DNA of 64,000 nt, taken from contig NZ_BBXG01000005.1 in NCBI RefSeq assembly GCF_001570605.1, forward strand, positions 62,001-126,000, read 5' to 3'. Below, one piece after another: positions 8,172 through 34,569 of the stretch (the first letter of the stretch is position 1; each line of letters starts with the position of its first letter). The notes beneath the pieces are model-generated. The model was given only the letters and a program-made list of their open reading frames with translations. It did no database searches and was not told the DNA's origin. This DNA is from Herbidospora cretacea (GTDB lineage: Bacteria; Actinomycetota; Actinomycetes; Streptosporangiales; Streptosporangiaceae). The position numbers were made by a program, and so were the translations under genes.

Positions 8172-9506
8172 ATGAAGCGAATCCTGACCACGGCGGTCGC
8201 CGCCGCCTTCCTGGCCACCCTCGTCGCCCCGCCCGCCCCGGCCGCCGCGACGGCCCCGCCCGCCTGCGCCCGGCCCACCGGCCCGCCGCCCGCCCCCGCT
8301 CCCCCGACGACGGTGGAGACGCTCGGGCAGGCGTACTTCTGCGTCCTGGCCAACTACTACGGCGGGCCCGGCCTGCGTACCCAGGACCTGCTGAAGGACG
8401 CGTTCGCCGCGTACACCGTGAACCTGCAGAGGCGCGGCGCGGACGTCGCGGGGCTCCAGCTTCCCGCGCTGACCGGAGACCGCGCCGCCGACTGGGCCGC
8501 CGCGGCCGGGGCGCTCGGCGAGGGCGACCCGGTGGCGCTGCGGGCGGCGATCGACGGGATGGTCGCGGGGCTGCGCGACAACCACGCCCACCACGAGGTG
8601 CCCGCGCCGCCGGAGGAGGAGGGGCCGGTGGGGACCGGCATCGTCGGCGCGTCCGGGATCAGCGGGCCGGGGCTCGACCCTGCGGCCCGGCCGCCGTTCT
8701 TCCTCACCGAGGTGATCAAGGGCAGCCCCGCCGACAAGGCCGGTGTCCGGCCCGGGGACATCGTGCGGGCGATCGACGGGGTGCCGGTCTGGGTGGGTGA
8801 CACGCTCAACCCGCTGCTGCTCACGCAGGTGCAGCAGGCGTCGTTCACGATCACCCTGCAGCGCCCGACGACCGGCAAGGTCAGGACCGTGCGGCTCAAG
8901 GTGGGCCCGCTGACACGGCCGGAGCGGACACTGGCGGTCAAGGACGTGTCGGGCGCCCGGTACGTCCGGCTCCCCGGCTTCTACCGGGGCGCCGCCGACG
9001 AGGTGATCGCGGCGCTGCGCGGCGGCCCGAAGAAGGTCGTCCTCGACCTGCGCGGCAACGGCGGCGGCTCCCCCGACGAGGTCGTGCGGCTGCTGGGCGC
9101 GTTCGCGCACGGGAAGATCACGAGCTATTTCTGCCGGTACGACGGATCGTGCACCGCCAACAGGACCGACGACACCGTGCCTCTGCTCGGGGCCGAGCTG
9201 GTCGTGCTGACCGACCGGCGCTGCGCGTCGGCGTGCGAGGACTTCAGCGCGGCCGTCCACGACCACGCGATCGCCCCCATCGTCGGGACCCGCACGGCCG
9301 GGGCCGTCTCGGGCCCGGCCGGCCCGTGGCTGCTGAACGACGGCAGCGTCCTGCTGCTGCCGTCGGTACGCCACCTCGGCCCCAGCAAGCAGATCGTCGA
9401 CACCGTCGGCGTCCCCGCCGACCACCACGCCCCGATGACGGCGCTGGACCTGGCGACCGGCCGCGACCCGGCCCTCCGCAAGGCCCTGTCCCTGCTCGCC
9501 GGATGA
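8172..9506 (+). CDS. Secreted S41-family (C-terminal processing type) peptidase
   Basis: 444 aa. Signal peptide MKRILTTAVAAAFLATL to about residue 27, a proline-rich stretch, an N-terminal helical domain, then a PDZ domain whose core is ADKAGVRPGDIVRAIDG, then the S41 core. The motif VVLDLRGNGGGS precedes the segment CASACEDF, where the nucleophile serine of the Ser-Lys dyad is expected. It probably acts outside the membrane on protein substrates. The role is not specified by neighbours: it stands alone between xylanase and a convergent MFS gene. There is no clear Shine-Dalgarno before the ATG. Confidence 0.87.
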   Translation: MKRILTTAVAAAFLATLVAPPAPAAATAPPACARPTGPPPAPAPPTTVETLGQAYFCVLANYYGGPGLRTQDLLKDAFAAYTVNLQRRGADVAGLQLPALTGDRAADWAAAAGALGEGDPVALRAAIDGMVAGLRDNHAHHEVPAPPEEEGPVGTGIVGASGISGPGLDPAARPPFFLTEVIKGSPADKAGVRPGDIVRAIDGVPVWVGDTLNPLLLTQVQQASFTITLQRPTTGKVRTVRLKVGPLTRPERTLAVKDVSGARYVRLPGFYRGAADEVIAALRGGPKKVVLDLRGNGGGSPDEVVRLLGAFAHGKITSYFCRYDGSCTANRTDDTVPLLGAELVVLTDRRCASACEDFSAAVHDHAIAPIVGTRTAGAVSGPAGPWLLNDGSVLLLPSVRHLGPSKQIVDTVGVPADHHAPMTALDLATGRDPALRKALSLLAG

Positions 9507-9515
9507 GCCCGGGTC

Positions 9516-10736
9516 TCAACGGCGGGCGACGGTCAGGACGTACAGGAGAAGACCGGCGGAGGTCAGGGCGAAGCCCGCCCAGACGGTGGACAGGACGCCC
9601 CAGCCGGCGTCGATGGTGATCGCGCCGCCGATCGCGCCGAGGGAGTTGGCCAGGTTAAGGGCGGCCAGGTTGAGCGCGCCCATCAGGGTCGGGGCCTCGG
9701 GGGCGAAGGCGGTCAGCCGGACCTGGATGGTGGGGATGGCGAACATCATGGTCGCGCCGACGCCGAACAGGCAGAGCAGCAGGATCGGCAGGCCGCTCCC
9801 GGCCACGCCGATGACCACCAGGAGGGCCAGGACGCCGCCGTACCCCCAGATCAGGCCGCGGTGCTCGAAGCGGTCGGCGACGCGCCCGCCGAGGTGGTTG
9901 CCGACCGCCATGCCGAGGCCGAAGACGGCCAGCGCGACCGGGATGAGCGCGGGGTCCCGCAGCGCCGCGTCGGTGACGAACGGGCCGATGAAGGTGTAGA
10001 CGGCGAAGATGCTGGAGATGCCGAGCGCCGCGACGACGACCATCAGCCAGACGCCGGCCCGGCGCAGGCCGCCCAGCTCGGCGGCGATCGACCCGCCGCG
10101 CAGGTCGTCGGTGCTCGGCAGCCAGGCCACCAGGGCGATACCGGCGGCGAGGCCGACCGCGACCACGGCCCAGTACATGACGCGCCACCCGGCGTGCTGG
10201 CCGATGAGGGTGCCGAGCGGCGACCCGGCGATGGTGGCGAGGGTGAGCCCGCCCATGACCGTGGCGAAGGCCTTGCCGCCCTGGCCCGGCCCGTAGACGT
10301 AGGCCGCGACGACGGCCCCCGCGCCGAAGAACGCCCCCTGCACGCTGCCCGCCACGAACCGGAAGACGACGAGCGAGGCGATGCCGGGGGCCAGCGCGGA
10401 CAGCCCGTTGCCCACGAGGAAGAGCACGACCAGGCCGAGCAGCAGCGTCCGCCGGTTCACCCGGGCGGCGAGCAGGGTGATCGCCGGGGAGCCGGCCACC
10501 ACGCCGAGGGCGTAGGCGGTGATGGCGTAGGTGGCGACCGGGATCGACACGCCCAGGTCCGCCGCGAAGAGCTGGATGACGCCGTTGCTGCCGAACTCCC
10601 CGGTGCCGATCGCGAACGTGCCCAGGGCCAGGGCGAACAGGGTCAGCCGGGGATTCCTGATGGGCGAGACGGCGGCGGTGTGCCGCCTCTCCTCGGCGGT
10701 GCACTGGCCTGCGTACGCCTGTGCGTGCATCGTCAT
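9516..10736 (-). CDS. MFS transporter, arabinose-efflux/Cmx type (DHA1)
   Basis: 406 aa with about 12 hydrophobic segments. The FRFVAGSVQGAFFGAG segment after helix 4 and the GTFAIGTGEFGSNG opening are typical of drug/sugar exporters in the AraJ/Cmx group. The start is taken at MTMHAQ (10736), after AAGG about nine bases upstream; an upstream in-frame start at 10817 would add an unlikely Pro/Arg-rich leader. The substrate is unknown. It converges on the S41 peptidase with only nine bases between stops and diverges from the DUF4188 gene. Confidence 0.88.
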   Translation of the reverse strand: MTMHAQAYAGQCTAEERRHTAAVSPIRNPRLTLFALALGTFAIGTGEFGSNGVIQLFAADLGVSIPVATYAITAYALGVVAGSPAITLLAARVNRRTLLLGLVVLFLVGNGLSALAPGIASLVVFRFVAGSVQGAFFGAGAVVAAYVYGPGQGGKAFATVMGGLTLATIAGSPLGTLIGQHAGWRVMYWAVVAVGLAAGIALVAWLPSTDDLRGGSIAAELGGLRRAGVWLMVVVAALGISSIFAVYTFIGPFVTDAALRDPALIPVALAVFGLGMAVGNHLGGRVADRFEHRGLIWGYGGVLALLVVIGVAGSGLPILLLCLFGVGATMMFAIPTIQVRLTAFAPEAPTLMGALNLAALNLANSLGAIGGAITIDAGWGVLSTVWAGFALTSAGLLLYVLTVARR

Positions 10737-10876
10737 GGGGGGGACCTTTCGACGGGACTGGGGGGCACGTCGAATGGTGGGCGGCGGCTGTGGATGATCA
10801 CTGAACGGCGGGTTCACGGATCGTCAAGTGGGCCGGGTTAACGTCAGCGCATGACCCGAACCCCGAGGAGTGCAGG

Positions 10877-11386
10877 ATGCCCACCCGAGTGACCCGGCAG
10901 ACCGTCGACCTGACCGCCTATCCCGACCTCATGGTCCTGTACCTCGGCATGCGGGTGAACCACCTGTACGGGATCAGGACCTTCTTCGGCTTCGGCCGGA
11001 AGATCCAGGAGTCGGTCGCGAGCAGGCCCGACGGGCTGCTGCTGCACGAGCCGGTCTACTACTCGTTCTTCCCGATGAACATGGGGATGCGCCAGTACTG
11101 GCGGGACCTCCCCTCGCTGCTGGAGTTCGCCCGGTCCGAGCCCCACCGGCAGTGGTGGCTGGACTTCCTGCGCGACTCGGGCGGCACCGGCTTCTGGCAC
11201 GAGACCTACTCGATCAGGGGCGGCATGGAGGCCGTCTACGACGACGTGCCGAGACCGATCGGGTTCGGGCGGTTCGCCGGGGTGCGGCGCGCGCGGGGCC
11301 CGATGTTCGGCTCCGCCTCCCGGCTGGGACGCACCGACGACGACGGCGCCCCGGCCCTGAGCGAGTCGGACCTCTACGACTCCTAG
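10877..11386 (+). CDS. DUF4188 (monooxygenase-like) protein
   Basis: 169 aa. Opening YPDLMVLYLGMRVNHLYGI and the later YWRDLPSLLEFAR, HRQWWLDF and GFWHETYSIRGGMEAVYDD follow the DUF4188 pattern, a dimeric ferredoxin-like (Dabb-related) fold annotated as monooxygenase or aldoxime dehydratase-like. No catalytic chemistry has been proven for this branch. The ATG has GAGGAG six bases ahead. Its stop shares the four bases CTAG with the stop of the convergent amidohydrolase. Confidence 0.82.
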   Translation: MPTRVTRQTVDLTAYPDLMVLYLGMRVNHLYGIRTFFGFGRKIQESVASRPDGLLLHEPVYYSFFPMNMGMRQYWRDLPSLLEFARSEPHRQWWLDFLRDSGGTGFWHETYSIRGGMEAVYDDVPRPIGFGRFAGVRRARGPMFGSASRLGRTDDDGAPALSESDLYDS

Positions 11387-23072: not shown

Positions 23073-25796
23073 ATGTCTGAGACAATCCGGCCGGTGAGCC
23101 CCCTGATCGGGCGCGGGCCCGAGACCGCGCGCCTCGAAGCGCTCGTCGACGGCGTCCGCGGGCGGGGCGACGCGCTGGTGGTGCGGGGCGCCCCCGGCAT
23201 CGGCAAGTCGGCGCTGCTGGAGGCCGCGACCGCGCACGCGGCAGCGCGCGGGATGGCCGTGTCGAGCACCTCCGGCGTGCAGAGCGAGACCCATCTGCCG
23301 TTCGCGGGCCTCCACCAGCTCGTCCACCCCCTCCTCGCCGCCGCCGAGGAGCTGCCGGTCCGCCAGCGCGAGGCGCTGCTGGGCGCCTTCGGCATGGTGG
23401 ACGTGGCCTCCCCCGAGCCGTTCCTCATCGCGCTGGCCGTGCTCAACCTCTTCGGCGAGGCGGCGGCCCGGCGGCCTCTCCTGGTGGTCGTGGACGACGT
23501 GCAGTGGCTCGACCGGCCGACGACCGAGGTGCTCGGCTTCGTGGCCCGGCGGGTGAGGTCGGAGCCGATCGTGCTGCTGCTGGCCGTCCGCGACGGCCAC
23601 CCCACCAGCCTCGACGACAGCGACCTGGCCGAACTGCGCCTGGGCGGGCTGACGCCCCACGACGCCGAGGCGCTGCTGGACGCGCGCGCCCCCGCGCTGC
23701 CGGTGGGCATGCGCTGGCGGGTGCTGGCCGAGGCGGCGGGCAACCCGCTCGCCCTGGTCGAGCTCCCCCGGGCGCTCAGCGCCGCGAGCACCGGCAGCCT
23801 GGAGTTCCTGCCGCTGACCACGCGCCTGGAGCGGGCCTTCGCCGCCCGCCTGTCGCTGCTGCCGGCCGGGACCCGGCTGCTGCTGCTGGCCGCCGCCGCC
23901 AACGACGGGCCCGATCTGACCGTGGCGCTGAAGGCCGCCGCCGTCCTGACCGGCGCGCCGGTCGGCGCCCGCGCGCTGACCCCCGCCGTGGAGGCCGGGC
24001 TGATCACCTCCGACGGCGACGGCGTCCACTTCCGCCACCCCCTGGTCCGGTCGGCGGTCTACCAGAAGGCCCCGGCCGCCGACCGCCTGGCCGTCCACGC
24101 GGCGCTGGCCGAGGCGCACGCCGGCGACGCCGACCTCAGGACCTGGCACCGCGCCGCCGCCATCGCCCACCAGGACGACTCGGTCGCCGCCGACCTGGAG
24201 CGGCTCGCCGCCCGCGCCCGGCGGCGGGGCGCGATCACCGTGGCGGTCTCCGCGCTGCGCCGCGCCGCCGAGGTCAGCGAGGACCGGGGCGACCGGGTCG
24301 AACGGCTGCTGCGCGCCGCCGAGCTCTCCTTCGAACTGGGCCGTCGCGACCAGATCGCCGAACTGGTCGCGCTGGCCGAACCCGAACTGGTGGGCGACCG
24401 CCAGCGGGCCCGGCTGACGTGGCTGAAGGAGGTGCTGGAGGAGAACCGCGACGAGGGGCCCGCCCGCATCCTGCGGCTCATCGCCGCCGCCGAGACCGTC
24501 GCCGACCCCGTGCTCGCCCTCAACTTCCTGCGCGCCGCCGCGCTGCGCTGCTGGTGGACGGACTCCGGCTGGGACCTGCGCCAGCGCGTCGTCACCTCGG
24601 CCGAACGGCTGGCCACCGGCCCCTGCGACCCGGAGCTGCTGCAGATCCTCGCCACCGTCAGCCCCGTCGAGAGCGGCGGCGTGGTGATGGAGCGGCTGGC
24701 CTCCCTGCGGGGCCGGAGCTTCGACGCGCCGGTGGCCAGGATCCTGGGGGTGGCGGGGAGCGCGGTGGGAGCGTACGACCTGGCGGTGCCGTTCCTCAAC
24801 GCGGCCATCGCCGACCTGCGGGCGCAGGGGCGGCTGGGGCTGCTGGCCCAGGCCCTGGTCTCCCAGATGTGGAGCCTGCTCTTCTGCGGCGACGTGTCCG
24901 GCGCGCTGCTGGCCGGTGAGGAGGCCGAGCGGCTGGCCCGCGAGACCGGGCAGGCGCGCTGGCAGTCCGCGGCCTGCGCCGGGCAGGCGATGATCGCGGG
25001 CCTGCTCGGCGAGGAGGCCCGCGGCATGGCGCTGGCGGCCGAGGGCGAGCGCATCCTCGGCGCCCGCGCCAACAGCTCCAACGTCGCGCTCATCGAACAC
25101 AGCCGGGGCGTGATCGCGCTGTGCGCCGGACGGCACGAGGACGCCTACGGCCACCTGCGCCGCCTGTTCGACCCCGCCGACGTCGCCTTCCACCCGGTGA
25201 CCCGCCTGTGGGCCCTCGCCGACCTGGTCGAGGCCGCGCCGCCCGCCCGGCGCGCGGAGATCAGGCCGCTGCTGGCGGAGGCGGAGGAGATCGGCGGGCT
25301 CACCCCCGTCCCGCTGCTGCACCAGGGGCTGCGCCACGCGCGGGCGCTCCTGGCCGCCGACGCCGACGCCGAACGGCTCTATCTGGACGCCCTCAGCGCC
25401 GACCAGCCGTCGCTGCCCATCGGCCGGGCCAGGCTGCTGCTCGCCCACGGCGTCTGGCTGCGGCGGCAGCGCCGGATCCAGGAGGCGCGGGTGCCGCTGC
25501 GCACCGCGCGGGACGCCTTCGACGCGCTCGGCCTGCTCGTCTGGGGAGAGAAGGCCCGGCAGGAGCTGCGCGCGGCGGGCGAGGCCAGCGACCTGCGCGT
25601 GGCCAGCGGCGTCGACCGGCTCACCCCGCAGGAGCTGCACATCGCCCGGCTGGCGGCGGCCGGGCTGTCCAACCGGGAGATCGGCCAGCAGCTCTACCTG
25701 TCGCACCGCACGGTCAGCACCCACCTCTACCGGCTGTTCCGCAAGCTCGGCATCACCGCGCGCGGGCAGTTGCGCGACGCACTCGGTCCGTCCTAG
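23073..25796 (+). CDS. LAL-family (large ATP-binding LuxR) transcriptional regulator 1
   Basis: 907 aa. The N-terminal AAA/STAND ATPase has Walker A GAPGIGKS at residues 39-46 and Walker B in [13 protein letters not shown] long helical TPR-like middle (about 350-830) precedes a C-terminal LuxR helix-turn-helix ([20 protein letters not shown] to [16 protein letters not shown]). MalT-type regulators of this kind need ATP and an inducer bound to the middle region. The divergent esterase-like/symporter operon is a likely target. The adjacent second LAL gene is a distant paralogue, not a copy. Confidence 0.93.
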
Positions 25797-28627: not shown

Positions 28628-29452
28628 GTGACCTTTTTCATCGCCGACGACGGAGCGCGCATCTTCTACAAGGACTGGGGCGTCACCGGCTCGCCCGTCC
28701 TGTTCAGCCACGGCTGGCCGCTCAACGCGGACGCCTGGGACGCCGCCGCCCTCTTCATGGCCACCCACGGCCACCGCGCCATCGCCCACGACCGCCGCGG
28801 CCACGGCCGGTCGACGCAGAGCTGGTTCGGCAACGAGATGGACACCTACGCCGACGACCTGGCCGGCCTCATCGAGCACCTCGACCTGACCGACCTCACC
28901 CTGGTCGGCCACTCGACCGGCGGCGGCGAGATCGTCCGCTACATCGGCCGGTACGGCACCGCGCGGGTGTCCCGGGTCGTCCTGGTCGGCGCGGTGCCGC
29001 CGTTGATGCTGCGCGCCGACGACAACCCCGAGGGCCTGCCGATCGAGGTGTTCGACGGCATCCGCGCCGGTGAGCTGGCCAACCGCTCCCAGCTCTACCG
29101 CGACCTGGCCGACGGCCCGTTCTTCGGCCACAACCGCACGGGCCAGGTGCCGCAGGGCTTCCGCGACGCCTTCTGGCTCCAGGGCATGGCCTCGGGACAC
29201 CGGGCCGCCTACGAGTGCATAGCGGCGTTCTCGGCCACCGACTTCCGCCCCGACCTGGCGGCGATCGACGTCCCGACCCTGGTGATCCACGGCGACGACG
29301 ACCAGATCGTGCCGTTCGAGGTCGGCGGGAAGCGCTCGGCCGCCCTGGTCAAGGACGCGACCCTGAAGGTGTACGAGGGCGGCGGCCACGCCCTCCCCGA
29401 CACCGACCGCGACCGCCTCCACGCCGACCTGCTGGACTTCGTCTCCTCTTAG
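28628..29452 (+). CDS. Alpha/beta hydrolase, non-heme chloroperoxidase/arylesterase type
   Basis: 274 aa from GTG at 28628. Catalytic triad positions are visible: serine in [19 protein letters not shown], aspartate in [12 protein letters not shown], histidine in [10 protein letters not shown]. This is the cofactor-free haloperoxidase/perhydrolase subgroup; the natural reaction is usually ester hydrolysis. It is cytoplasmic, with no signal peptide. It converges on the metE remnant, the two stops overlapping by two bases. Confidence 0.9.
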
Positions 29453-29631
29453 GGGGTGGCGCGCACGGTCCTGGCGGCGGCGACCATGTTGGCCAGGGCC
29501 GCCCTGGTCTCGGGGTAGCCGCGGGTCTTCAGGCCGCAGTCGGGATTGACCCACAGCCGGTCGGCGGGCACCACCCGGAGGGCCTCGCGCAGGTGGACGG
29601 CCATCTCCTCGGTGGTGAGGACGTGGGGTGA
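29449..29631 (-). pseudogene. metE: metE remnant: last 60 codons of cobalamin-independent methionine synthase
   Basis: Reverse-strand translation ends with [20 protein letters not shown] and the closing helix to the stop at 29449. [11 protein letters not shown] is the C-terminal MetE signature carrying the last zinc cysteine. Homology stops abruptly upstream of [10 protein letters not shown], near 29631, where foreign sequence begins. Family members are about 750 residues, so over 90 percent of the gene is gone, including the homocysteine and folate sites. The rest is not found on the other side of the island. A B12 riboswitch, a usual metE controller, lies on the same strand upstream at about 34.3-34.4 kb. 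Confidence 0.85.
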
Positions 29632-29699
29632 CGCCGTACAGCACTGGCACACATGTCTCCGCAGGAGACTCCGCGCCTCCATTGACGCGCACGGCTGCG

Positions 29700-29943
29700 G
29701 CCGAAGGTCGTGGCTTGCCAACCCCGAGTGATCCCCGACCAGCTCTGGCAGGAACTTTTCGCGCAGGTGACCCGCCTCCGCGATCGCGCCCTGCTGGCCT
29801 GTCATGTCCTCGGGCGTCTGAGCCTCCGAACTGCTCGGGGTGCACCTATCCAACGTCGACTGGACGCGCGGGCAACTGTGGGTGGTCTCCAAAGGTCGCG
29901 GCTGCGCCAAGCAGGGCCTGTCTCGCCGCAGGACTTGGCCTAA
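29700..29943 (+). pseudogene. Tyrosine recombinase (integrase) fragment, frameshifted
   Basis: Two frames together give a recombinase core. One reads [27 protein letters not shown] (about 29730-29810). After a frame change another reads [20 protein letters not shown] and the SKG motif, ending at 29943. In intact phage-integrase proteins these are contiguous: the alpha helix of RDRALL, the catalytic-Arg region (SELLG, here with the arginine lost at the frameshift), and the beta sheet ending in SKG. The gene cannot be active. Confidence 0.65.
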
Positions 29944-29956
29944 TTGACGGACTTCT

Positions 29957-30136
29957 ATGAAGAAGCTGGACTGCCTGCGGCATGCCCATGTCACGACCAC
30001 CGCGCTCTATACCGCAGGAGGGTTAAAGTACCTGATCGACAAGCTTGCCGAGCATTATCAGCGTCCGAGACAGCCGACCTTTTGGTCAGCGACCTACAAC
30101 CCGGACGACATTGCGGTGGTGTTGGGTGAGCCATAG
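29957..30136 (+). pseudogene. Tyrosine recombinase C-terminal remnant
   Basis: A 59-codon frame. Its [12 protein letters not shown] segment resembles the GHxxxxTTxxY catalytic His/Tyr region of tyrosine recombinases, and the tail (YNPDDIAVVLGEP) resembles actinobacterial integrase C-termini. Together with 29700-29943 it looks like one recombinase with an internal deletion and frameshift. Function is unlikely. Confidence 0.55.
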
Positions 30137-30479
30137 CGCAGTTGGACCGAAGATGCGCCTGCACCTCACCTTAACCGGAGCTGCTACCATAATCCTGCCG
30201 ACAATGCCAGCGTTCTGGATGACGATAGGCCTATCGCTCCCTCGTGCCGGGACCGCTGCCGCAGCCGAGCCGTCTCCCTTAACCTTTCGGTGATCAATCC
30301 GAGAGCCGGACCGAGCGGATCGCCGACTTGGCCGCAGAGCACTTTAGCCTCGACCACAACGGCCGGTCGGCCAATCGGCGGGGCATGCTCGACTTGCTGG
30401 CTAGGCTGACAATTTTCGGGGTGGACCTGGCAGGGACGGTGGAATGTGGTCTGCTTCAACGATTCAGCTCATCCAATAG
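30137..30479. other. Gap in the island: no convincing gene
   Basis: Only short frames. One at 30153-30293 codes for 46 residues with a signal-like hydrophobic start. Another frame at about 30310-30420 (ERIADLAAEHFSLDHNGRSA) looks like a protein relic but lacks a start and is unrecognised. Probably decayed mobile DNA. Confidence 0.5.
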
Positions 30480-30926
30480 ATGCGCTATCGGGGACCACGT
30501 CACGGACACGCTCGGATTAACGCCGCTGCGGTCCAGACCTACTCCCTGCAGGTTAATCAGCCGACCGCAGCAGCGGTCAACGCCACCCGGTTGATCCGTT
30601 TCGCAGACCGATTTCGTCGGATCGCTGACGATCCTGTGCTGGAGGATTCTTGCCAGCGACTCGAGCAGCAGCCGGGCACCACGGACCCGCGCGAGATTGC
30701 GGTCGGGAGCGTCGGTACGGTGCTGGTCGTCTCCGGCGGCATCGACCTGACCGACCTTACTGCCGAGGCCGTTCTTCTCTATGCCGAGCAGCCGCCGGGA
30801 TACACGGGCGCTGCGACCGTTTGGCCGATCTTGCATACGATGGGCCAGTTCCCAAGCTGGGTACCTAGCACCCCGCATGGCGCCCGAATCCGCGAGCAGC
30901 AGTCGATCGAGGACGTAGTGCTGTGA
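30480..30926 (+). CDS. Hypothetical protein, probably a truncated mobile-element gene
   Basis: 148 aa, unrecognised. A plausible folded core is RLIRFADRFRRIADDPVLED, then TTDPREIAVGSVGTVLVVSG and LTAEAVLLYAEQ. It ends abruptly after SIEDVVL in the left arm of a perfect hairpin, which suggests 3' truncation. There is no ribosome binding site before the ATG. It lies among recombinase relics and upstream of the caspase-kinase on the same strand. It could be a recombinase or replication-gene relic; no function is assigned. Confidence 0.4.
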   Translation: MRYRGPRHGHARINAAAVQTYSLQVNQPTAAAVNATRLIRFADRFRRIADDPVLEDSCQRLEQQPGTTDPREIAVGSVGTVLVVSGGIDLTDLTAEAVLLYAEQPPGYTGAATVWPILHTMGQFPSWVPSTPHGARIREQQSIEDVVL

Positions 30927-30952
30927 CCGGAAACCTCTGCCGGTCACAGCAC
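30918..30952 (+). terminator. Perfect 13-bp hairpin at the end of the truncated ORF
   Basis: GTGCTGTGACCGG at 30918-30930 pairs without mismatch with 30940-30952 around a nine-base loop. The preceding ORF's stop lies inside the left arm. It may be an intrinsic terminator isolating the caspase-kinase from upstream transcription, or an inverted-repeat end left by a mobile element. There is no T tract. Confidence 0.55.
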
Positions 30953-31276
30953 GGGGGTTAGAGTACAACTCAGTCGAAGCGGTCTGAGCGCTTCCACCAG
31001 TCTGGTGATCGCAAAGCCGATCAAGCTCATCAGGCTAGGCAGGAACCACCCGAACGCATGCAGCACCGCCGCCGACCCCCCCGGTCAGACCTGAGAACGG
31101 CCTGAAATCTTTGTGCCGGTAACCTCAAAATCGCCCATTTACCGTAATGTACTTGATGCACCAAACTGACAGCCATGGGCCAGTCAGCATGGCGACATAT
31201 CGGGCATAAGTCTCATAACGGGCAAATCGGTTGATCGCCCCCCATGCTGAGCCGATGAGATATTGAGGAGAAATCT
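30953..31276. other. Leader region of the caspase-kinase gene
   Basis: No gene. The first half carries a minus-strand relic with a hydrophobic peptide (HAFGWFLPSLMSLIGFAITR) without a start. The second half is AT-rich and should hold the caspase-kinase promoter, but I cannot pick hexamers with confidence. GAGGAG at 31265-31270 is the ribosome binding site. Confidence 0.4.
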
Positions 31277-33511
31277 TTGGCTTCTCGACTTGCGCTCGTG
31301 TGTGGCGTTAGCTCCTATCCGACTAGATGGGGGAAGTTGGACAGCTGCCGACATGATGCGGACGAGGTCGGCGAACTGCTCGCCTTTCCTGAATACGGAT
31401 TCTCCGTTACAAAACTGCTTGACGAGGAGGTAACTAAAGCTGCCATTTTCCAGTGGATGGCGGAGGCGAAGCGGTCCGGTGCGGAAAAAATAGTTTTCTA
31501 CTTCGCTGGACATGGCGCCGTAAATGACCTCGGAACCTTTCTCGTAACCTACGACAACCGAGAATTCGATGAGGGTGTTGGACTTGCAACTCTAATGACA
31601 ATGTTGGAGCCCGAACCAGACAGTGCCACAGAGACAATGCTCCTCTTAGATTGTTGTCATGCCGGTGAGGCGGCGAGACTCCCTGCGAGCAATTTTGCTG
31701 TCCGACGGATCTCAAATTCCGACATCAATCAGGTAGTTCGGCAAACTGATCCTTCCGTAGTAGTCATTGCCGCATGCACAGGAGACCAGCGCGCTTGGGA
31801 AGCTGCCAACCTAGGCCATGGCATCTTCACATATCATTTGCTCGCAGCGCTTCTTGGCGAAGCGGCGGACCACACTGGTTCTGTCACGGCGCACAGCATC
31901 TATGAGGTCGTATCACGGGAGATGGCCAATAGAGATGGGCACGAGCAGGATCCGGTATTCGGAGGTCGTGTTCGCGGAAGGATGATTATAGGAAGAGGGT
32001 TATCGCCCGTACTGGCACCACCGCGCCCCGAGCAGGAATACGCCGCTATTGAGGTCGAGGCGCACGCTTATTTAGATAGCTACAACAAGCTTCGAGCGAC
32101 TTATGACATGCAGACATGGCGATCCGAAGGATATTTCGCTGCGTGTCGCAAGCTAGAGCAGATCAACAACTGGTTCGCAAAGAAAGATCTAGTCGAAGGA
32201 CTTCCTGGGCGCGAGCAATATCGCTTAGCAAAGGAAACACTCCTACGCTTCCAAAGTGAGCTAGGCAATGTAGAGTCCAGCACTCGGACTAGATGGGGCG
32301 TGTTAGAACATCCGCTCGGTTCCGGAGGGTTCGGCAAAGTCTGGCTGCTTCGCAATGCTAATGGAGATGCGGGAGCATATAAGCTTTATCACTCCAACGA
32401 ACTGCACGATCATGAAAAGGTGAAGCGTTTCAAAAATGGCTACGAGGCAATGCGTATGCTAAATCACCCCCGTATCGTAAGCGTGCACGACTATAGTAGC
32501 TGCCCTCCCGGGTTCGTAATGGATTATATTGAAGGTAAAAATCTGCGCGACCTTGCCGTGGGCATTTTTCTCGAACCCATAGATATCATTCCAATTCTCC
32601 TTAAATGCGCTGAGGCCGTACTTCACGCTCACGAGAACGACGTTATTCACCGTGATATCAAGCCAGAGAACATCATCTGCCGGTACGGAGAGGACGGGAC
32701 GTACAGTCCTTATCTCACCGATTTTGATCTCGCCTGGTTTAGTACGCAGACCCAGAAGGCGACTAAGACCGCTATGGGAGTCGTCTACTACGCCGCACCA
32801 GAGCAATATGTGGTTTTCGACCCCAAGGCGGCTCGGAGTAAGACGCCGACTCTTGATGTTTTTTCATTTGGACAGCTCATGCACTTCTGCCTGACAAATA
32901 TGGACCCCGAACCCCTAAAGGTCGAAAGCAATATAGACCGCCTTAACCAGAGGCTTGTCCACTCAGCCCCTGCCAGCGCTGTAGCCGGCATCATTGATCT
33001 CTACAGAGAATGCACAAGATTTGAACCATCCGACCGTATTTCCAATTTCTCGGAGATAATTCACCGCCTAGACGGAATCGGGCAGGCCCTTTCGTATACC
33101 GACAGTAGCGCCAACATCTCAACAGCGGATTACTCTCGCGAACTTATTTTCCAAATGACGCGAGTGGCTACGCCTGTAACACTGGACTCATTCGTGAACG
33201 CTACAAGGACATGGGAAATCGGCCTGCAATGGAAGGAAAAATCCGGGCAGCGCAAGTACACAGACTATCTCTCCATGCACTTTAGGCCCACTCAGAGAAT
33301 GTCACTTGAAAATGTGTCGAATGAGCGGATGCGACCGATCTTCAATCGCAGAATCGATCAGGCGATCTCTGCCTATCCAAACGCAACCCGGCACCCAGGA
33401 AACAAGGGTGAGTTTCAATTTTATCTTGACTGGAGGCCAGACTCCATGACGTTGGGCGATGTTCCTAAGCTTGCGGGCCTATTGCGTGACATCTTCTCGG
33501 TTCTCCAGTAG
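31277..33511 (+). CDS. Caspase-like protease (peptidase C14) fused to a Ser/Thr protein kinase
   Basis: 744 aa from TTG at 31277, with GAGGAG six bases ahead. Residues 1-240: caspase/metacaspase fold, catalytic His79 in FYFAGHG and Cys127 in LLLDCCHAG. About 250-335: helical linker. About 340-615: kinase with glycine loop GSGGFGKV (348-355), ATP lysine K369, HRDIKPENI (H458, D460, K462, N465), metal-binding D482 in DFD (usually DFG) and APE (507-509), so it appears active. About 620-744: C-terminal domain I do not recognise. No membrane segment or signal peptide. The gene is AT-rich, uses TTA (Leu124), and sits alone in the island. Caspase-like proteases and kinases both occur in phage-triggered cell suicide, so a one-protein immune switch is the leading idea. 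Target and trigger are unknown. Confidence 0.88.
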   Translation: MASRLALVCGVSSYPTRWGKLDSCRHDADEVGELLAFPEYGFSVTKLLDEEVTKAAIFQWMAEAKRSGAEKIVFYFAGHGAVNDLGTFLVTYDNREFDEGVGLATLMTMLEPEPDSATETMLLLDCCHAGEAARLPASNFAVRRISNSDINQVVRQTDPSVVVIAACTGDQRAWEAANLGHGIFTYHLLAALLGEAADHTGSVTAHSIYEVVSREMANRDGHEQDPVFGGRVRGRMIIGRGLSPVLAPPRPEQEYAAIEVEAHAYLDSYNKLRATYDMQTWRSEGYFAACRKLEQINNWFAKKDLVEGLPGREQYRLAKETLLRFQSELGNVESSTRTRWGVLEHPLGSGGFGKVWLLRNANGDAGAYKLYHSNELHDHEKVKRFKNGYEAMRMLNHPRIVSVHDYSSCPPGFVMDYIEGKNLRDLAVGIFLEPIDIIPILLKCAEAVLHAHENDVIHRDIKPENIICRYGEDGTYSPYLTDFDLAWFSTQTQKATKTAMGVVYYAAPEQYVVFDPKAARSKTPTLDVFSFGQLMHFCLTNMDPEPLKVESNIDRLNQRLVHSAPASAVAGIIDLYRECTRFEPSDRISNFSEIIHRLDGIGQALSYTDSSANISTADYSRELIFQMTRVATPVTLDSFVNATRTWEIGLQWKEKSGQRKYTDYLSMHFRPTQRMSLENVSNERMRPIFNRRIDQAISAYPNATRHPGNKGEFQFYLDWRPDSMTLGDVPKLAGLLRDIFSVLQ

Positions 33512-33876
33512 GCGGCCCTATCCAGGCGGGCGCGAGCTCTAGGCTGAGGTTACGGAAGGTCGAGGTCGAGACGTCCATTGACGATGAAGCCGCCGATCGG
33601 CCATCATTTGGCGAAAAACCGCCAAATAGATCGGCGGTCGCATCTGGCGCTACTGCTTACGCATTTTCGGACCAGCTCACTAGGTCGCTCCGGCCGCCCC
33701 CTGTTACTGGCTTGCTTTTGCGCAAGCCGTCGATGGTTTGTGTCGAGCTACTTCCCCATCTCCATTGGCAACAATTCGGCGGTGCCGCACGCTATAGCGA
33801 AGTTGCCGCGAAACGCGCGGTGGAAACCCGCGTGACGCGGAAACTCATCACCGGCCTAAGATCGAGGTACTCACAA
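33512..33876. other. Gap at the right part of the island: no convincing gene
   Basis: An 85-codon frame at 33578-33835 has no ribosome binding site and no recognisable features, so it is not called. The stretch holds the nested inverted repeat at 33590-33637 and the island junction near 33880. Confidence 0.5.
33590..33637. repeat. Nested inverted repeat (long imperfect hairpin) in the island
   Basis: Outer arms CCGCCGATC (33590-33598) and GATCGGCGG (33629-33637). Inner arms ATTTGGCG (33606-33613) and CGCCAAAT (33620-33627), with loop AAAAAC. The left arm carries a seven-base bulge against one base on the right. It is 79 bases after the caspase-kinase stop. It could be a terminator, a recombination site or a mobile-element end. 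Confidence 0.6.
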
Positions 33877-34257
33877 TTAGCGATCGCCGGTCGGCTTCAA
33901 ATGGCCGCGCGGCGGGGTGAACCGGTGGAGTTCGAGGATCGGCGGCAACGGCGCCAGTCCCGGGCCGCCGGCGCGGATCCACGCGGCGACGTCGGCGGTC
34001 GCGCCCTCGTCGTTGACGAAGGCGAGCCACACCGGGCGGCCACCGGCGGCGCGCCCTTCCGGGGTGGGCTGGACGACGATCACGTTGGCCTGGTCGCACA
34101 CGTCGAGGCAGCCGGTCACCCGGACCTCGGCGACGTCGGCGAGGCGGCGTATCTGCTCGTCGTGGTCGAGACGGGGGACCTTCCGGCTGCTGCCGCAGCA
34201 GCAGTCCCGGCAGACGGTGACCCTTCTCGGGCCGACGGGTGAGGGGGAAGCAGGCAC
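33877..34257 (-). CDS. Thioredoxin-like [2Fe-2S] ferredoxin under B12 riboswitch control
   Basis: 126 aa from GTG at 34257, with AGAGAGG about ten bases upstream. A longer frame from GTG 34338 would begin inside the riboswitch and is rejected. Cysteines lie in VCRDCCCGSS and VTGCLDVCDQANVIVV, the two ligand pairs of thioredoxin-like [2Fe-2S] ferredoxins, followed by WIRAGG and LELHRFTPP. Relatives are found with cobalamin-synthesis genes in Actinobacteria. The last residues after TPPRG may be contributed by island DNA, so the C-terminus may be altered. It was probably first in a B12-repressed operon that ran toward metE. Confidence 0.82.
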   Translation of the reverse strand: MPASPSPVGPRRVTVCRDCCCGSSRKVPRLDHDEQIRRLADVAEVRVTGCLDVCDQANVIVVQPTPEGRAAGGRPVWLAFVNDEGATADVAAWIRAGGPGLAPLPPILELHRFTPPRGHLKPTGDR

Positions 34258-34301
34258 CGGCGCCCGGCCTCTCTCGGGGAGATCCGCCCCGGCTGGTGAG
34301 G

Positions 34302-34397
34302 AGGCGACCGCGTGAGTCTCTGGCTCTCGGCTCGACACCGATCACAGTGGCGGGACCGCACCGGATTCACACCGGCTTCCTCGTTCCGCCGTCGCCT
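34302..34397 (-). promoter_or_regulatory. Cobalamin riboswitch
   Basis: On the reverse strand the conserved run AGGAAGCCGGTGTGAATCC is followed by GGTCCCGCCACTGTGA, then the B12 box GAGCCAGAGACTC. AGGCGAC (34391-34397 strand-reversed) can pair with GTCGCCT (34302-34308) to close helix P1. The aptamer is compact, about 96 nt, and lies directly before the ferredoxin gene. In this class adenosyl- or another cobalamin lowers expression, probably by hiding the ribosome binding site since no obvious terminator follows. Confidence 0.9.
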
Positions 34398-34569
34398 TTC
34401 CGAAATCGTCTCATATGTGGCCGTATGAACCATCCCATGGCGGATCTCCGCAGATTAGACGCCGCTGGCCGGGTAGGTGACGGCGGCAGCGTGCTCAACG
34501 TGCGATCAGCTGCTTCCAACCGCTCCCGGTACGCCCCGTCACGCGCGGGTGAGGAAGGTGGTGACCGCC
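34398..34569. other. Divergent intergenic region, ferredoxin riboswitch / STAS gene
   Basis: No gene seen. It should hold the minus-strand promoter for the riboswitch transcript and the plus-strand promoter of the STAS gene; GAGGAAGG at 34551-34558 is the latter's ribosome binding site. Individual promoter hexamers are not clear. Confidence 0.45.

Follow-up and report, generated by a model that had tools for sequence, protein, structure and literature searches.

A solitary, mobile caspase-kinase protein with a predicted chaperone-like fold in Herbidospora cretacea, probably an anti-phage suicide module

Closest described systems

The closest described counterparts of the gene reported here are the EACC2 caspase proteins, which, as far as the EACC2 passages of PMC8195603 go, had an S/T/Y kinase among their variable C-termini and a predicted role in conflict; a caspase-kinase chain as such is therefore not new. 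The present gene lies at 31277-33511 (+) in a 64,000-nucleotide stretch of Herbidospora cretacea DNA (contig NZ_BBXG01000005.1, positions 62,001 to 126,000; this whole stretch is called the window), and it encodes a caspase-fold C14 protease, a Hanks-type kinase, and a C-terminal domain with a probable TY-chaperone-like fold. The window protein shared with EACC2 the presence of caspase and kinase in one chain, but, measured against that description, it displayed two differences: (i) there was no alpha+beta domain before the caspase, which started at residue 4, and (ii) the C-terminus was fixed. This solitary mobile protein is probably an anti-phage suicide module.

EACC1 was a two-gene system with a 3' caspase gene carrying a variable C-terminal domain (PMC7159879, section 33), and it resembled the window protein in its N-terminal caspase fused to further domains, its mainly actinobacterial hosts, and its predicted conflict role. 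The window caspase, however, scored 75.8 bits against the NF047832 cut-off of 140, and the window genome contained no match to the EACC1 gene (PF19953), whether adjacent or elsewhere. Across the 31 genomes that hosted the gene (see below), EACC1 was absent from 17 and had a match somewhere in 14, lying far from the gene in G224 and G025, the two genomes where the distance was read. The best-scoring defence kinases were the MADS kinase MAD6 and the PD-T4-6 kinases, and both matched the kinase region only: MAD6 at 112.3 bits, short of the NF047741 cut-off of 460 (exceeded in 2 of 198 phylum genomes), and PD-T4-6, a family without a curated cut-off, with its listed matches within residues 334-619.

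Orthocaspases (prokaryotic C14 proteases) likewise had the His/Cys dyad, to which the window protein added the kinase and the chaperone-fold domain. TY-chaperones (type III secretion system chaperones, YbjN, and DR1245), predicted in passages of PMC9503650 (2022) to be peptide-binding parts of virus-countering systems, showed structural likeness to the window C-terminus (Z 6.1-8.3 over 111-120 residues); the latter, in contrast, gave no sequence match to them in a Pfam and a PDB profile search and was the end domain of a kinase chain instead of a free-standing protein. A term search of PMC3501461, PMC1262709, and PMC4933709 found no passage on a caspase-kinase fusion, and no paper on a stand-alone caspase-kinase-chaperone-fold family was found in a search that preprints and most subscription papers lay outside.

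Domain organization of the window protein

The gene was an intact open reading frame (ORF) of 744 residues started by TTG, with GAGGAG at 31265-31270 (+), six bases upstream of the TTG, as its likely ribosome-binding site, and its GC content was 0.518, the mean of its flanks being 0.74; the earlier note on this DNA, made from the sequence alone, had described the gene in the same terms (744 residues, TTG-started, AT-rich). A whole-chain structure model was built from a 31-row alignment of the window protein and its relatives (mean pLDDT 85.9, pTM 0.63), and it displayed the following order, all on the + strand: the caspase domain (residues 4-228; 31286-31960), interrupted past the catalytic Cys by a very-low-confidence loop (residues 136-157; 31682-31747; pLDDT <50); a helical linker of three helices (residues 252-329; 32030-32263); the kinase domain (residues 340-606; 32294-33094); and the C-terminal domain (residues 607-744; 33095-33508).

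The assignment to caspase-fold C14 proteases followed from the Pfam Peptidase_C14 match (residues 4-228, E 2.4e-16, 60.6 bits against a cut-off of 21.4) and the His79/Cys127 dyad, found where the earlier note had placed it. The catalytic Cys was kept in 31/31 rows and the His in 30, with one gap in the remaining row; D125 was conserved in 31/31 and D27 in 30 rows with one gap, and both of these aspartates presumably have a role in an acidic pocket. The loop past the catalytic Cys held Arg143, a position occupied by Arg in 25/31 rows. The non-animal C14 proteases characterised so far cleave after Arg or Lys, according to passages of PMC5756287, which makes self-cleavage of this loop at Arg143 a reasonable guess and no more.

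The kinase domain (Pfam Pkinase at residues 344-594, E 2.3e-28) harbored Lys369, the HRD motif (458-460), Asn465, and Asp482 in 31/31 rows, as expected of a Hanks-type kinase, and departed from this type at two further core positions: (i) Gly388, invariant in 31/31, aligned with a glutamate of StkP (9ru3) that we take to be the alphaC glutamate, and (ii) the DFG glycine was replaced by Asp484 (DFD, 482-484) in 31/31. The invariance of DFD was partly favoured by a search pattern, LTDFDLA[WY]; six sequences found without it, in the family search, carried both changes. Among 21 other kinase loci (seven of the window genome and 14 of other family genomes), DFG was present in 19, the number in which the motif was read, and each of the 11 loci examined at the alphaC stretch had the glutamate there. 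The full kinase catalytic set claimed earlier thus stood for K369, H458-R459-D460, and D482, with DFD at the reported place, but not for the alphaC glutamate position.

Residues 607-744 were also modelled alone from 21 relatives (pLDDT 89.6, pTM 0.83), giving the order helix, three strands, helix, two strands, helix; DR1245, a dimer according to passages of PMC3575483, has the same topology. In a comparison of this model with known structures by VIA-align 2, ranks 2-4 were type III secretion chaperones or DR1245: 2xga_B (Z 8.3, rmsd 3.3, 116 aligned), 1xkp_B (Z 7.4, rmsd 3.5, 111 aligned), and 4h5b_B (Z 7.1, rmsd 3.2, 118 aligned). YbjN-type 2plg_A (Z 6.3) and ExsC 3kxy_D (Z 6.1) were matched as well, together with biotin ligases (Z 5.6-6.6) and topoisomerases. 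No Foldseek match reached E <= 0.001; by TM-score, the leading entries of its 50 rows were Escherichia coli YbjN (0.41/0.42) and AmyR (0.40/0.39). A TY-chaperone-like (type III secretion chaperone/YbjN) fold is the probable, not certain, assignment, because an ATPase (see below), biotin ligases, and topoisomerases also matched the predicted model. By sequence, the domain had just an unrelated 3-PAP row in Pfam (E 0.15) and a sole match, 8etq_A (E 0.0011), in a PDB profile search. The domain that the earlier note had called 'unrecognised' thus has a predicted fold. An AMPK-type KA1 C-terminus, considered on account of long Foldseek AMPK rows, was dropped: the domain alone had no AMPK among the matches listed, which does not amount to proof.

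Relatives, rarity, and horizontal movement

The gene was found in 6 of 297 family genomes: beside the window's own, five held relatives over most of the length, with 62, 59-60, 59, 57, and 32-34% identity. None of the six congeners of the window species contained a relative. When 84,980 species genomes were scanned with a profile (A2), 32 loci were returned. The gene was present in 28 of these (L033-L060), three of them being genomes G108, G257, and G025 already known from the family search; the other four (L061-L064), which encode plain kinases or chains of another kind, were excluded before all counts. The 28 loci plus the window, G224, and G173 composed the set of 31 proteins used throughout, a lower bound because the scan needed short peptide patterns (LTDFDLA[WY] or [VI][YN]YAAPEQ). 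The hosts were mostly Actinomycetota of many actinomycete genera, plus two Acidobacteriota, two Chloroflexota, and one Reyranella (Pseudomonadota).

The caspase-helices-kinase layout was common to the 30 relatives, and caspase and kinase stood together in all 31 rows; their union in one chain is thus more than chance. Four rows deviated in part: L040 lacked the His part because of a broken frame, L045 and L053 were cut by contig ends, and L059 was divergent at its end. The L040 gene (L040:8466-10813, Microbacteriaceae), broken before the caspase Cys, could be a pseudogene or reflect a sequencing error. A C-terminal-domain profile (A4), for which 21 of the 31 C-termini were used, matched only these same proteins, namely six in the 297 family genomes (the window's included) and one, the window's own, in 396 phylum genomes. 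An all-against-all ORF comparison around the 31 loci found no partner gene common to distant relatives; together with the absence of EACC1 from the window genome, this supported a single-chain module without a constant partner, in line with the self-contained chain proposed in the earlier note.

Judged from sequence, the gene has moved horizontally. Its GC content was below the flank mean in 31/31 loci, and in 29/31 it was the lowest 2.2-kb stretch. As read from groupings in the gene tree, and not from a formal comparison with a species tree, Streptomyces antnestii joined Streptosporangiaceae rows (100/98), apart from other Streptomyces, and Bailinhaonella (Streptosporangiaceae) joined Actinomadura plus Streptomyces (100/99).

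Chromosomal slots and their contents in congeners

In genome G224, which encodes the 62% identical protein, the flanks of the gene were conserved among congeners. Of 30 congeners searched, seven were read: both flanks were placed in G241, G165, G244, and G238, and the right flank was kept up to the slot in G285, G174, and G262; congeners with just partial flank matches were left out. The left flank ended at one place (L028 8846-8857) in 7/7, and the cargo of the slot had a GC content of 0.456-0.475 in 7/7, against 0.64-0.70 in the loci otherwise. Compared to G241, the exchanged unit of G224 (L028 8848-11242) was composed of the caspase-kinase gene (8870-11110) plus the last 130 bp or so of an adjoining flavoprotein gene.

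The cargo matched anti-phage models in five of the seven congeners: (i) AIPR/AbiU in G241 and G244 (PADLOC E 4.6e-103 and 8e-106); (ii) the Kiwa pair KwaB plus KwaA in G238 (1.2e-9 and 5.5e-22); (iii) Hypoth_Ymh (HEPN/Ymh) in G165 (Pfam 6.6e-29), for which PADLOC gave just Aga_HEPN (2.8e-6) and PD-Lambda-3_B (1.7e-7); and (iv) a gene in G174, DUF262-like by eye (PADLOC NsnA 1.6e-31, PD-T4-2_A 3.6e-19), with a 218-residue companion lacking a PADLOC match. G285 and G262 each carried one gene without a PADLOC match. The known defence genes and the caspase-kinase gene were thus alternative occupants of one locus.

The AT-rich single genes without a PADLOC match in this slot, L117:956-2311 (+) and L119:1838-3094 (+), each had an R-x4-H-like stretch by eye, presumably HEPN-like, and they are candidate new defence genes. 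In G224 the caspase-kinase start codon shared bases with the stop codon that ends the flavoprotein gene upstream (L028:11107-11110), hinting at read-out from the promoter of the latter.

The slot comparison was also applied to G257, where the gene lay 1.3 kb from tRNA-Phe and four congeners were read: G187 contained a full Type I restriction-modification set in place of the caspase-kinase gene (L108:700-7192), G248 a gene that resembled a helicase and weakly matched PbeA, and G277 two genes without a match, and the one gene scanned of the 12-kb stretch in G230 was without a match. For the window itself, the two flanks lay on different contigs in all six congeners.

Proposed function and rival explanations

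We favour, with moderate confidence, the reading that the gene is a mobile stand-alone conflict module, most likely anti-phage and of the suicide type, in which the caspase is the effector, the kinase the switch, and the C-terminus a sensor or assembly part. Immunity is held to be probable because the gene exchanges with known defence cargo at one locus (G224) and is mobile. We infer a defence role in which a sensed cue would be relayed in the order sensor, kinase, protease, by an active kinase and an Arg-specific protease. The C-terminal TY-chaperone-fold domain, a fold that dimerises and binds peptides in relatives, would serve in sensing or assembly, the N-terminal caspase-fold protease would be the effector, and the kinase, its core altered, would be the switch linking the two. 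Binding of an infection cue to the C-terminus would alter the dimer and allow the kinase to act, its target being the kinase itself, the helical linker, or the caspase loop; the protease freed in this way would cleave first itself, after Arg, and then proteins of the cell, the cell stopping before phage release. A fully specified version, a 'one-protein apoptosome', appears rather unlikely in all its parts; in it, a peptide-binding TY-chaperone-fold dimer would sense a phage protein, and the rewired kinase, with Asp484 of DFD hypothetically standing in for the missing alphaC glutamate and holding Lys369, would phosphorylate the caspase loop (R143-R144-I145-S146), licensing self-cleavage after Arg143 and suicide. 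The loop serine S146 was not kept in all relatives.

Several results weigh against this reading. The earlier note had looked to defence islands among the neighbours of homologues, and none emerged: of 163 genes called within three genes of the 31 loci, 148 were scanned with PADLOC, and they showed no defence enrichment, with nine family rows of one member each at E <= 1e-10. The direct neighbours of the 31 genes were mostly ordinary, in part the outcome, homologues only in developmental or housekeeping loci, that the earlier note had named as contrary to immunity. Among relatives aligned over more than 80% of the length, none occurred in 505 matching plasmid records or in 31 matching phage records, and none was found in viral contigs. 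Six slots were examined: one was clear (G224, its evidence covering 7 of 30 congeners), one was partial (G257), the Streptomyces L051 slot had an msrA-type flank followed by ordinary-looking genes in seven relatives by eye, and the window, G108, and G173 gave no reading. The immunity suggested in the earlier note thus gained from the G224 slot and from the rarity, movement, and AT-richness of the gene, and it was held back by a basis of one clear and one partial locus. The TY-chaperone fold rests on a predicted model whose Z of 6-8 is near the level of chance best matches, the first-ranked structure being an unrelated Vibrio ABC-type ATPase (5d6a, Z 8.5), and the kinase, to judge from its altered core, may be inactive.

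This last point leads to the best-surviving rival, possible though not favoured, in which the kinase is a nucleotide-binding, pseudokinase-like clamp that binds ATP and passes on shape, not phosphate, with the protease doing the work. Gly388 and Asp484 in 31/31 rows, where 19 of the 21 other kinase loci had DFG, speak for it, as does the statement in passages of PMC7159879 that most kinase domains of VMAP systems have disrupted catalytic residues; the invariance of Lys369, Asp460, Asn465, and Asp482, however, argues for retained catalysis. A second rival reverses the roles, the caspase acting as the trigger by cleavage of the helical linker or of its own loop, which would release an active kinase as the effector, in an EACC1-like manner. 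The match of defence kinase families (mad6, PD-T4-6, MkoA) to the domain, the EACC1 model in which auto-proteolysis deploys the C-terminal effector (PMC7159879, section 33), the placement of Arg143 in a low-confidence loop, and the three-helix linker before the kinase are consistent with such a scheme. We regard it as doubtful: a kinase without the alphaC Glu and the DFG Gly would be odd for a hard-working effector, and the C-terminal domain was never found apart from the caspase-kinase chain in the 297 family and 396 phylum genomes.

A regulator of developmental or stress-related cell death, not of immunity, would fit the mostly ordinary neighbours and the many hosts that are filamentous actinobacteria, but it is quite unlikely for a gene that occurred in 6/297 family genomes, moved horizontally, was AT-rich, and was exchanged with anti-phage genes at one site. 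It is very unlikely that the Herbidospora cretacea gene is simply decaying cargo of a mobile element now dead, since its frame, start signal, and catalytic residues were intact, even though 1.6 kb of its island was debris and a metE copy was broken (see below).

If the anti-phage suicide reading is true, sensor-, switch-, and killer-like parts are united in one chain, and the wider question of how bacterial immune kinases are coupled to proteases could be studied with this cassette in one purified protein. We know of no immune caspase shown to be gated by a kinase in the same chain. The protein would also be a natural test case for kinase catalysis without the alphaC glutamate, and the G224 locus would mark a site on actinobacterial chromosomes where short, AT-rich defence genes accumulate, including two that had no PADLOC match.

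Genetic surroundings

Recurrent ORF clusters near the gene were composed of opposite-strand ORFs of the gene itself, one unnamed family in seven loci, and small groups, including flanks shared by three Streptomyces. The 25 most frequent neighbour Pfam rows (of 155) included regulators, permeases, peptide methionine sulfoxide reductase, and several transposase families. In Streptomyces wedmorensis, a BTAD-ABATE-CGNR regulator (L051:10851-12191, -) adjoined the caspase-kinase gene, and L057 had an ORF of similar length at the matching place.

The window gene lay in a foreign island of about 4.1 kb (about 29632-33735), inserted between two metE pieces on the - strand: a C-terminal relic (29449-29631, with the metE tail at 29462-29631) and an N-terminal relic (33736-33806). 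The same contig also had an open metE frame of 796 codons at a distance of about 210 kb. The earlier statement that the island had destroyed metE consequently applied to one interrupted copy, an intact metE remaining elsewhere in the genome. Upstream of the gene, the island contained debris (29632-31276), whose four ORF pieces had no convincing Pfam match (best E 0.087). A tyrosine recombinase end, suspected by eye in fragments at 29686-30136 (+), was not retained, Pfam finding nothing in three pieces.

A cobalamin riboswitch (RF00174) was located at 34294-34420 (-), ahead of the gene at 33877-34338 (-). DNA similar to this riboswitch region was present on the same contig some 4 kb ahead of the intact metE, which suggests that the region is a B12-controlled metE locus that was duplicated and broken. 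The sole tRNA in the window, a predicted tRNA-Leu (gag) at 25352-25426 (-), lay about 4 kb to the left of the island.
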